A stretch of DNA of 64,000 nt. It comes from Vanrija pseudolonga. Taxonomy: Eukaryota > Basidiomycota > Tremellomycetes > Trichosporonales > Trichosporonaceae. Both the position numbers and the translations under genes were made by a program. The notes beneath the pieces are model-generated. The model was not told the origin of the DNA, ran no database searches, and worked only from the letters and a program-made list of their open reading frames with translations. The stretch is from the NCBI RefSeq assembly GCF_020906515.1, contig NC_085850.1, positions 3,348,001-3,412,000 of the forward strand, in the 5' to 3' direction. Positions 22,624 through 31,794 of the stretch are shown here, piece by piece. Each line of letters begins with the position of its first letter. Position 1 is the first letter of the stretch.

Positions 22624-23394
22624 GGGGCTGCGGGGTTGTACTGTAAGGGAACAAGAACAAGAAGATCGATCTCGGGCGGCGCCGCGCCGCGCCGGCGTGT
22701 GGCGTCGCGTCGCGCGTCGCCGACCGAGCGGTGGCGCCGCCGCTGTCGCCGCCACCTGGAGCTCGCAGTCATTGTTCGCGGTATGGATATGAAGGTATGC
22801 AGTTCTGTTCTGTAGCGGGGTGAGCCGGACAAGGCGGGCATGGACGAGACGGGAATGGCCGTTGTTTGGTGCGGTGCGCCCCGGATGGCGAGGGGACGGC
22901 GAAGGGACATGTGACGGCCGCCGTTGTCGCTCGCGAGTGTCACCTCCACGGCCTTGTTTGTGCTTCGAACTCGGTGTGCTATGCCTGATGTTAAAAGACT
23001 GGCATAGCCGCTGCTGCTGCTGCTGCTGTACATCAAGACGACCTGCACAAGCCTGTTGTTGTCGCCGCCGCCTCTGCTGTTGCCACCGCCGCCTCTTTCA
23101 TTTTGCATTTTACGTCTAGGCTTGGATTGGTGCTGGTCTGTGCGCGTCTGCGGCGTCGCGGTTTGTGCTGCCCCCTTCTCCCCTCTGCCCTCCCCAATGG
23201 CCCATACAAAGATCGGCCCATGAGAGAACGAGGGGAGGGGAGGGAGGGAGCAGCAGCCTGCAGCCAGTCGCTGCTGTCACGGACCCCAAGCAGCAACCAG
23301 GAAACAGCCCAGGCATGCCGCAACCTCCTCCCTCCCCTTGACACATCCTTTCTCCCACTCACACTTACACCACTCTCACATCACACCCAGTACC
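22624..23394. other. Intergenic: promoter of the HECT_2 gene
   Basis: No gene seen. A CTG/CTT-type simple repeat occurs near 23012-23028, and a pyrimidine-rich stretch just before the next ATG is typical of a leader. Confidence 0.5.
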
Positions 23395-29514: not shown

Positions 29515-29831
29515 TCACGCCTGCTCACTCTCCTTGACCTGTACAAGGTCAGCGTGCCCCTACTACCACATGCACCCACCTCCACGGGGCCAGCACCAAC
29601 AGCGCGCGCGATAGAGCAGCAACAGCTCACACGCCCGGCGCCGCAGGAGTAAACGGTCGACACGTACTGCCCGTAATACTTGCACGAAACGTAGCACGAG
29701 GCCGTCGAGCAGGGGATGTAGCGATCACACGCGCGCTTTTCGAGAGCGTCGGCGTCGTCGGCTGGCGTGGGTGCGGCGGACGCGGTGGCGGTGATGATGA
29801 GGAGGACGGTGGCGGCGGCGACGAACTTCAT
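29515..29831 (-). CDS. Small secreted 8-Cys protein, cluster member 1, 91 aa
   Basis: Starts at MKFVAAATVLLIITATASA, a clear signal peptide. A short acidic propeptide (PTPADDADALEKR) ends in a Kex2-type KR, giving a predicted mature chain starting ACDRYIPC. The cysteine pattern is C-x5-C-x4-C-x3-C-x12-C-x6-CCC. A 41-nt intron (29579-29539, GTGGGT...GCTGACC...ACAG) near the C terminus follows GAGPVE and leads to a seven-residue last exon. Reading through without splicing instead gives a longer, Arg-rich tail ending at 29493. The spliced form is preferred because member 2 has an equivalent intron at the same place. No known family recognised. It is probably secreted; function is unknown. Confidence 0.8.
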
Positions 29832-30172
29832 TGTGGCGGTGGGCGTTAGGGTAGTTGATGGGCTGGAAGAATACCGCCAGCTGCGCTGATATGCTGCGAG
29901 ATGCTGTGCCAAGACACGGCGCATCAAGACCGTCCTTCACCCAGTCAGCAGGACCCCCGTCCCGAACCTGATCACATGCCGACTTGGTGGATTGTGAACA
30001 TGGCGAATCAATCTGCCAAGCCGTCAACGGTCATCCGTTCGGGAGGTCCAAACCGTATCTGCCCGTCTTGTGGAGCGCCACGCTCCTATCTCGCCGTCCC
30101 AGTTGGAATGCATGGCGTTTGCTTGCGCTACAGCATTCGTGGACCCGCGCAAACCAATACATACACGCCGCC
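29832..30172. other. Spacer between cluster members 1 and 2
   Basis: Upstream region of member 1, with a TATA-like CATATCA on the minus strand at about 29895-29889. No further cysteine-rich frame was found. Confidence 0.5.
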
Positions 30173-30488
30173 TTATTCCCTCGCGCACATCTAGGTGTTC
30201 TAGCTCTCGTCAGCCCATTCGGTTGATGCCACCCACCTCGCCCGGAGGCCCAGCATACGACATGGGCGAGCAGCAGCAAGTGAACTTCCCATTGGAGCAC
30301 GCCCAAGACACCCCGCTCCACCCGGGCTTGTTGCACAACTTGATGCATTCTTGGTTCGAGGCCGCAGCGCATATCTTCATGTAGGGGCAGACTTGGCGCC
30401 GGTCGGGGTGGGGGTCGATGGTCTCCCCAACGGGGGCGGCGGCTGTTGCGCCAATGAGCAGAGTGGCGACGAGGACGGCGAGCTTCAT
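30173..30488 (-). CDS. Small secreted 8-Cys protein, cluster member 2, 89 aa (spliced)
   Basis: The signal peptide is MKLAVLVATLLIGATAAA. A propeptide ending PDRR places a Kex2-type site just before QVCPYMKIC. Pattern C-x5-C-x7-C-x3-C-x11-C-x6-CCC, followed by AGPPGE. A GTGGGT donor directly after GPPGE (30236) pairs with CTAG at 30191 (46 nt, GCTGAC branch) and gives a five-residue last exon ending at 30173. The coding part before the intron is 252 nt, identical in length to that of member 1. Without splicing the frame ends at 30210 (92 aa). The conserved intron position supports common descent by tandem duplication. Confidence 0.8.
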
Positions 30489-30887
30489 GGCTGCGTTATG
30501 GGGGCATATGCATAGAGCGCGGTGCTGGCTCTTATACCGTGCGAGTCTGCTTCAGTCTTGACGACGCAGTGCCTCGGCGGCCACACGCTTGGCATAAAGT
30601 GCCCGTTGAGACGTCACGAGACGGCACGTTCGCCACTGTCTTGGGCGCCCGCCCCTCATCGTTCCTTGCGTGTGAGATGCAGCGAAAGACCCCATGTATC
30701 TGCTGTCTTCTCGAAGCCCAGATCCCTCCTATCTTGGCACGGAGTGGCGGCAACCTACACTTCCAGCAAGTGCATCCGCAAGATTCTACCATTCTACTGT
30801 GCCGCCCTTCGCTGCCTCTTCTGATTATTCTCCGCCGCCACATGTGCTATATGTACCCCTTCCAAGCCTCCCTAGATCGGCTACGCG
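30489..30887. other. Spacer between cluster members 2 and 3
   Basis: Contains the TATA-like element of member 2 (30538-30531) and the possible 3' exon of member 3. No additional gene seen. Confidence 0.5.
30531..30538 (-). promoter_or_regulatory. TATA-like element (GGTATAAG) of cluster member 2
   Basis: Lies about 43-50 nt upstream of the member 2 ATG. Members 3 and 4 have related elements at a similar distance. Confidence 0.5.
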
Positions 30888-31190
30888 TCAGTGCCCTTCA
30901 CCCATATCACCACGTACAGAAGGGATCCAAGGCCCAGCGCTATTCTTCTTGGTGCAGCAGCAGCTCCACTTGCCGTTCTCGCAGAGAGACGACATGCTGC
31001 CGTCCCAATTGGACGGGGAACAAAAGTCCCAGCACGCTTTGGCCGAGGCCATCCTGCACTCCTTGCCTGCGAGACAGTATTTGGGGAGGGCGCGGGCTTC
31101 GGCGTGGGCGTCGGCGTCGGCGTCGGGGCTGGGCATGGCCACCGTGGCGGTGGTGGCGGCGAGGGCGAGGGCGATGAGGCTGAGCTTCAT
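30888..31190 (-). CDS. Small secreted 8-Cys protein, cluster member 3, 100 aa
   Basis: Signal peptide MKLSLIALALAATTATVA, then an acidic alanine-dipeptide propeptide PSPDADADAHAEAR that resembles the dipeptide spacers trimmed by Ste13-type peptidases (analogy only). The mature region is C-x5-C-x7-C-x3-C-x12-C-x6-CCC followed by TKKNSAGPW, the same post-CCC GP as its neighbours. The frame ends at 30888 without splicing. A GTACGT donor after WIPS (30917) with CTAG at 30872 could replace the last residues, as in members 1 and 2, but that is less clear. No family recognised. Confidence 0.8.
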   Translation of the reverse strand: MKLSLIALALAATTATVAMPSPDADADAHAEARALPKYCLAGKECRMASAKACWDFCSPSNWDGSMSSLCENGKWSCCCTKKNSAGPWIPSVRGDMGEGH

Positions 31191-31241
31191 GGTGGTGCGG
31201 GTGGGTGGGAGGTGCTCCAACACATCCATGTCACCTCGTCT

Positions 31242-31248
31242 CTTATGG
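31242..31248 (-). promoter_or_regulatory. TATA-like element (CCATAAG) of cluster member 3
   Basis: About 52-58 nt upstream of the member 3 ATG. It is a degenerate match to the GTATAAG of members 2 and 4. Confidence 0.35.
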
Positions 31249-31485
31249 CCAGTCGCGTCACCGTCACATCCCCACCGCCCGCTGCCACACTTGACGACCA
31301 ACCTAAAACCCACCCACCGCACCCACTTGTCCGTGCCACCGCGATCGACGGCATAGTAGCAAAGTATATCTGTCCGTCACACTATCACCGTCGGGACGCT
31401 GTGCATGTGAACGCGGAGAGCGACAACGTAGGCTATGAAGGCCGCCGTCGACCTGAAACACACAGTTGCGCCCACCGCCGGCCAC

Positions 31486-31794
31486 TCACAACGGCCCCTT
31501 CGGCCCAGGCCCCACCCTGGTCTGCGTACAACAGCAGTAGTTGCCCGGGCCGTCGGGACACACGCGCAGGCTCCCATTATCAAACATGTGCAGGCTGCTG
31601 CACCAGTTCTTGCACCTGATGGCCAAGTGGCTCCCGCAGTACGAGTAGCGCTGGCACGGGCGCCCGTTGATGCGCGGGTGGAGGCGGGTGTCCTCGATGG
31701 GTTCGGCGTCCGCGTTGGCGTCGGGGCTGGGTACGGCGCCGGTCGCGGCGGCTAGGAGCGTGAGGACGAGGGTGAGGTCGAGGGCGAGCTTCAT
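31486..31794 (-). CDS. Small secreted 8-Cys protein, cluster member 4, 102 aa
   Basis: Signal peptide MKLALDLTLVLTLLAAATGA, then VPSPDANADAEPIED, a propeptide close to that of member 3. The cysteine region is C-x5-C-x7-C-x3-C-x13-C-x7-CCC, followed by TQTRVGPGPKGPL. It is the most divergent member but keeps all eight cysteines and the GP after CCC. A GTGAGT overlaps the stop codon (31487), so a terminal intron (acceptor TTTCAG near 31450) is possible, as in members 1 and 2. No family recognised; predicted secreted. Confidence 0.8.
   Translation of the reverse strand: MKLALDLTLVLTLLAAATGAVPSPDANADAEPIEDTRLHPRINGRPCQRYSYCGSHLAIRCKNWCSSLHMFDNGSLRVCPDGPGNYCCCTQTRVGPGPKGPL

Follow-up and report, generated by a model that had tools for sequence, protein, structure and literature searches.

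We analysed a 64,000-nucleotide stretch of the genome of Vanrija pseudolonga, a trichosporonalean basidiomycete yeast (C2:3348001-3412000 of an assembly of 24.9 Mb in nine contigs), hereafter the window, and a run of four minus-strand genes, g1 to g4, at positions 29515-31794 within it. Each gene encodes a precursor with a signal-like start, a propeptide and eight cysteines, the last three of them adjacent (CCC). An earlier note on this DNA had placed four such frames here and on this strand, and both the place and the strand were confirmed.

The four window genes

Gene g1 (31486..31794) encodes a precursor of 102 aa with its cysteine core at 31528-31656 and gaps between successive cysteines of 5,7,3,13,7,0,0. 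Gene g2 (30872..31190) encodes 93 aa in two exons (exon 1, 30918-31190; intron, 30881-30917; exon 2, 30872-30880), with the core at 30954-31076 and gaps of 5,7,3,12,6,0,0. In g3 (30191..30488), exon 1 (30237-30488, 84 aa) carries the core at 30270-30389, with gaps of 5,7,3,11,6,0,0, and is followed by a proposed intron (30200-30236) and exon 2 (30191-30199), both placed by eye. Gene g4 (29515..29831) encodes 91 aa, with the core at 29616-29729 and gaps of 5,4,3,12,6,0,0; exon 1 spans 29580-29831, the intron 29539-29579 (with a putative donor) and exon 2 29515-29538. The measured gaps agree exactly in 4/4 proteins with the previously described pattern C-x5-C-x(4,7)-C-x3-C-x(11-13)-C-x(6,7)-CCC, and the Gly-Pro described within about 10 residues of CCC was seen in all four, at most 10 residues behind it. 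The strict cysteine pattern gave four matches in the window, none in 40 dinucleotide shuffles and none in the reversed window; a looser pattern gave five matches and none in the shuffled or reversed controls. The additional match is low-complexity sequence at 22955-23083 on the plus strand.

Signal peptides were assessed by eye: the four precursors begin with MKL or MKF followed by a hydrophobic stretch. Their propeptides have a net charge of -1 or -2 and a basic residue at the end, near the first cysteine; this end is dibasic in two precursors (RR, KR) and a single basic residue in the other two (K, R). A GT donor lies behind Gly-Pro in g2, g3 and g4, with CTGAC branch-like sites and nearby acceptors (read by eye), and in each of these three genes an intron of 37-41 bases is probably followed by a short exon 2. 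The gene extents given earlier thus hold in part: once spliced, g4 stops at 29515, which is the earlier boundary, and the short second exons are a probable addition in g2, g3 and g4.

A larger family in the genome

We searched the V. pseudolonga genome with one cysteine pattern and ten protein queries and then read the fetched stretches; the counts are lower bounds. At least 15 eight-cysteine genes and two divergent variants were found in four places: the four window genes on contig C2; seven same-direction genes and the divergent C3g at C3 233.9-240.0 kb; three genes, with both strands represented, at C3 291.0-292.9 kb; and one gene with the divergent C2f at C2 1616.3-1617.3 kb. The tandem cluster reported earlier is therefore real as four adjacent genes, and it is one of four places of a larger family. 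Across the 15 paralogs, mean pairwise identity was 38% in the first 18 residues and 15% in the mature core outside the shared cysteines, and with the further clusters these values bear out the description of the proteins as secreted-looking, fast-diverging and tandemly arranged. The signal-like N-termini of the members line up in alignment A3 (by eye). Gly-Pro after CCC is a feature of the window members and C2f, and 7/10 eight-cysteine genes of C3 end at most four residues past CCC.

The two variants depart from the eight-cysteine plan. C2f lacks the first N-terminal cysteine (Ca) and the fifth (Ce), leaving six cysteines in the core. C3g (L016:1921-2268 (+)) lacks Ce and has extra cysteines (GCAWCRTC) ahead of C-x3-C. 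As for its second N-terminal cysteine, either another residue stands in its place or an insertion has shifted it; C3g is a naturally occurring departure from the disulfide plan.

Relatives outside Vanrija

The protein search covered 5.8 billion proteins and was seeded with at most 100 five-residue words. Significant relatives were only V. pseudolonga proteins and three outside proteins, P0003, P0007 and P0009. The earlier claim of lineage-specificity is supported to that extent; absence elsewhere is weak evidence, because the search uses so few short words. P0003 is 67% identical to mature g2 and P0007 86% identical to mature C3i, and P0009 groups with C3e in the gene tree with unstarred support of 90/79. 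Starred support was obtained on 1/15 inner branches (C3i with P0007), and therefore we claim no order of duplication; the tree pairs P0003 with g3, yet its identity is highest to g2. Given these close outside relatives, several family lineages seem to be older than the split from the source organisms of P0003, P0007 and P0009.

One further candidate was the Podospora fimiseda protein P0010 (QBC38DRAFT_459883), 80 aa and secreted-looking, with a non-significant E of 0.16. It has C-x5-C-x7-C-x3-C (CEKYC) and lacks CCC, and may be an ascomycete relative that is truncated or wrongly spliced. A search with P0010 as query returned no further relatives among five candidates.

Database gene models

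The window proteins appear in databases as V. pseudolonga LOC62_02G003058 to 003060. For g2, model P0001 (LOC62_02G003059) has the same splice and the same protein as ours, ending ...WIPSPI. For g1, model P0002 (LOC62_02G003060) places a splice inside CCC, so that two of the three cysteines remain; for g4, model P0004 (LOC62_02G003058) uses the same acceptor and an earlier donor before CCC, which removes CCC. We consider P0002 and P0004 probably wrong, because CCC is kept in every one of the 17 genes of the family and also in three relatives, P0003, P0007 and P0009. No database model of g3 was found among the protein-search matches, and the locus numbers of its neighbours are consecutive, with none left between them. 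Two adjacent paralogs on contig C3 are joined into one in model P0006. Among the database entries examined, some CCC-peptide genes thus appear to have a wrong splice, to be merged with a neighbour or to lack a model.

Sequence and structure evidence for the proposed fold

The cysteines follow the order of the cysteine-stabilized alpha-beta (CSab) defensin frame, C-x3-C and then C-x-C, in 15/15 eight-cysteine paralogs, whereas the divergent C2f and C3g fail a six-cysteine CSab regular expression. Defensins are antimicrobial peptides known from plants, insects and other fungi. AlphaFold2 models of two members, C3i and g2 (m5c67232652fb), place C-x3-C on the helix and CCC on the final strand, with predicted local distance difference test (pLDDT) scores of 88 and 72; both were built from one shared alignment and hence are not independent. 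The structure prediction proposed in the earlier note as a check for a shared fold suggests CSab-like helix and strand placement in two members, from models that share an alignment. The weak structure matches of the models were mostly plant defensins and scorpion toxins. Among the paralogs, the names returned by Pfam below threshold were those of CSab families only, at 11-12.6 bits against gathering cut-offs of 21.5-27, and the best E over the 18 members scanned was 0.02. No window protein or paralog tested reached the gathering score of a defensin-type Pfam profile. A precursor profile gave weak CSab matches in the PDB, and no PDB matches were obtained for the mature profiles A6 and A7 or for three single mature peptides. 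Two sets of matches were taken as chance: those of g3 in a phmmer search of the PDB (a hydrophobin, an antibacterial peptide and a designed coiled coil, E 1.2-3.4), and three NCBIfam matches among the 18 members.

The CCC arrangement has a published counterpart. The group 2 defensin-like (DEFL) motif, CX{3,21}CX{2,12}CX{3,4}CX{3,15}CX{4,23}CCC (PMC6329339), fits 4/4 window proteins and 13/15 eight-cysteine paralogs; C3h and C3i fall outside it by one gap that is two and one residues too long, respectively. Among the outside relatives, P0003 and P0009 fit and P0007 does not. Whereas the earlier note could name no family for these proteins, the frame is that of a CSab defensin with an extra cysteine in C-x-C, and the CCC motif has been described.

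Flanking genes, rejected loci and upstream regions

The cluster lies between two genes: a plus-strand gene of the major facilitator superfamily (MFS) type, one of whose two scanned pieces matches PF07690 above the cut-off, and a permease-like minus-strand gene at 33-34.5 kb (read by eye). Inside the C3 cluster, L015:8349-8679 (+) encodes a secreted-looking protein with two QPPIDTWVxCGxGxCE repeats and a cysteine pattern unlike that of its neighbours. A short open piece with PACCCMW and no N-terminal part lies at G000:C2:4346989-4347066 (L024); over 26 residues it matches the end of C2f at 54% identity, and it is perhaps a gene remnant. For the weak matches at C4:998080, C7:1744412, C1:3909859, C7:8378 and C2:4346989, reading the sequence or scanning it with the pattern showed no full frame, and the weak match at C1:1368793 was not counted among the members. 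Loose-pattern matches in L017 near 6913 and L019 near 7703 lack CCC and were dropped.

TATA-like boxes were present in 9/17 upstream regions of family genes, and the 8-mer GTGCCACA occurred in 5/17 against 0.21 expected, among 5601 8-mers. We did not accept either as a sign of shared regulation, since many 8-mers were compared and the genes are related tandem copies; these elements may be shared by descent.

Discussion

We favour, with some confidence, a reading of the four gene products as pre-pro-peptides that give rise to CSab defensin-like peptides of the CCC type, with an antimicrobial or antagonist role. By this reading, the window family is a new, tandem, fast-diverging family of a known kind. 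After removal of the signal, a Kex2-type protease would cut at the basic site, and the mature peptide of 50-60 residues would fold as strand-helix-strand-strand. With the cysteine order Ca-x5-Cb ... Cc-x3-Cd ... Ce ... Cf-Cg-Ch, the helix would hold C-x3-C and the last strand C-x-C (Cf and Ch), joined by the bonds Cc-Cf and Cd-Ch, and one N-terminal cysteine would pair with Ce as the third classical CSab bond (the classical set being C1-C4, C2-C5 and C3-C6). The middle cysteine of CCC and the remaining N-terminal cysteine would then form a fourth staple from the first to the last strand. The secreted peptides would act against competing microbes, and duplication would diversify them while the cysteine frame is kept.

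The fourth bond is a more tentative proposal, which we rate at slightly less than an even chance: a basidiomycete CSab branch in which a fourth disulfide is anchored inside C-x-C, with the outward-facing middle cysteine tied to the first strand. In the ten-cysteine array of PMC5116183, as far as the available text goes, fourth CSab bonds are C1-C10 in plant defensins and drosomycin, C5-C10 in nematodes and molluscs and C1-C7 in macins. The Vanrija peptides would share the CSab core and a fourth disulfide with such four-bond peptides, plant defensins being the main structural neighbours of the models; their extra cysteine lies between array positions C8 and C9, and a staple so placed would lie outside the three types in that text. 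The joint loss of Ca and Ce in C2f fits a bond of Ce to an N-terminal cysteine (CSab C1-C4), which is suggestive only. Which N-terminal cysteine is used in other members is not told by C2f or C3g.

Among known systems, the closest by motif are the group 2 DEFL peptides of the cereals Triticum kiharae and Leymus arenarius and of Fusarium oxysporum f. sp. melonis (EXK23984.1), and the accessible part of PMC6329339 states that the CCC type is known from a fungus as well as from plants. The comparison is by motif only, the eight-cysteine motif with terminal CCC being common to both. In wheat, the four group 2 peptides resemble one another closely and are neutral, whereas the window peptides are net positive and far diverged in their mature parts; Vanrija has many clustered genes and precursors with an acidic propeptide, and in the window group a Gly-Pro tail is present, followed by the proposed intron in 3/4. 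The cereal and Fusarium members were absent among the protein-search matches listed, nothing on the CCC motif was found in two plant papers (PMC7407236, PMC8838067) in the terms searched in their accessible text, and the literature matches listed, a search scope of main texts outside most subscription journals, showed no report of the CCC family in Vanrija or other Tremellomycetes.

The fungal defensin-like peptides fDEF1-8, such as plectasin, micasin and the malpisins, offer a second comparison. According to the portions of PMC4165938 and PMC5234102 available, they form tandem clusters (one Mortierella alpina strain, for example, has 14 malpisins, and two contigs carry 11 of these), their propeptides are partly acidic with basic ends, their introns lie mostly near the 3' end, and basidiomycete members are known from Agaricus and Malassezia. 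The Vanrija peptides resemble them in the C-x3-C / C-x-C frame, the signal-like start, the acidic propeptides (in part), the clusters and the probable 3' introns. The consensus in PMC5234102 has six cysteines and wants a residue other than cysteine in the middle of C-x-C, whereas the Vanrija peptides have eight, and that position is cysteine in 17/17 genes.

The products are probably antimicrobial or antagonistic. It is less likely, though the strongest competing view, that the CSab fold is kept in effector- or signal-type peptides for mating, development or contact between organisms, as suggested for most Zymoseptoria defensin-like peptides. The family is large and fast-diverging, net charge is 0 in two paralogs (C3e and C2e), g1 and C2e lack a basic residue in the Ce-Cf loop, and a synthetic Zymoseptoria member had the fold and no activity, as the text seen of PMC5234102 reports. 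Against this, the basic Ce-Cf residue that the same text ties to activity is kept in 13/15 paralogs, net charge is positive in 12 of the 14 paralogs whose mature start could be used (C3f was left out as unplaceable, and the start of C3d is doubtful), and Vanrija is classed with saprotrophs in the part of PMC12820176 seen.

Several observations weigh against a defensin-like fold and would favour a convergent disulfide-rich fold in which the C-x3-C and CCC spacing is coincidental. Neither sequence nor structure searches gave a significant match, and Pfam at E<=10 returned nothing for the four window precursors. All 15 eight-cysteine paralogs lack the Gly of GXC at -2 relative to Ce (the fourth cysteine of the frame), a residue that is usual but not universal, and a cysteine sits in the middle of C-x-C. 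The first strand of the C3i model has just two residues, and the cysteine assignment of C3g is ambiguous; these two points and the lack of Pfam matches for the window proteins also weaken the proposal of a fourth disulfide within CCC. We nevertheless regard convergence as improbable: two diverged members were modelled with a CSab-placed helix and strands, albeit from a shared alignment, the sub-threshold Pfam names are of CSab families only, and cereal peptides with the same motif are classed as defensin-like in the text available of PMC6329339.

That the proteins are hydrophobins or other cysteine-rich surface proteins, for instance of chitin-binding type 2, is scarcely credible despite their small size, secreted look and eight cysteines, the UniRef name of P0002 (chitin-binding type 2) and the g3 hydrophobin match at E 1.2, since their gaps depart from the order C-CC-C-C-CC-C, as the earlier note had rightly held in setting hydrophobins aside, and Pfam at E<=10 matched none of the 18 members scanned to a family of this sort.

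With CCC-type CSab defensin-like peptides as the preferred reading, a cysteine pattern without a name becomes a testable peptide class: the genome of a basidiomycete yeast with at least 15 clustered eight-cysteine CCC peptides. The CCC also raises the question of how a CSab fold could accommodate a cysteine at the central position of its main motif. If the fourth-bond proposal is true, the CCC of cereals and fungi would point either to a defensin class that is ancient and was overlooked or to a solution that evolved more than once, and if the Vanrija peptides are active, they would be a new source of stable antimicrobial scaffolds.
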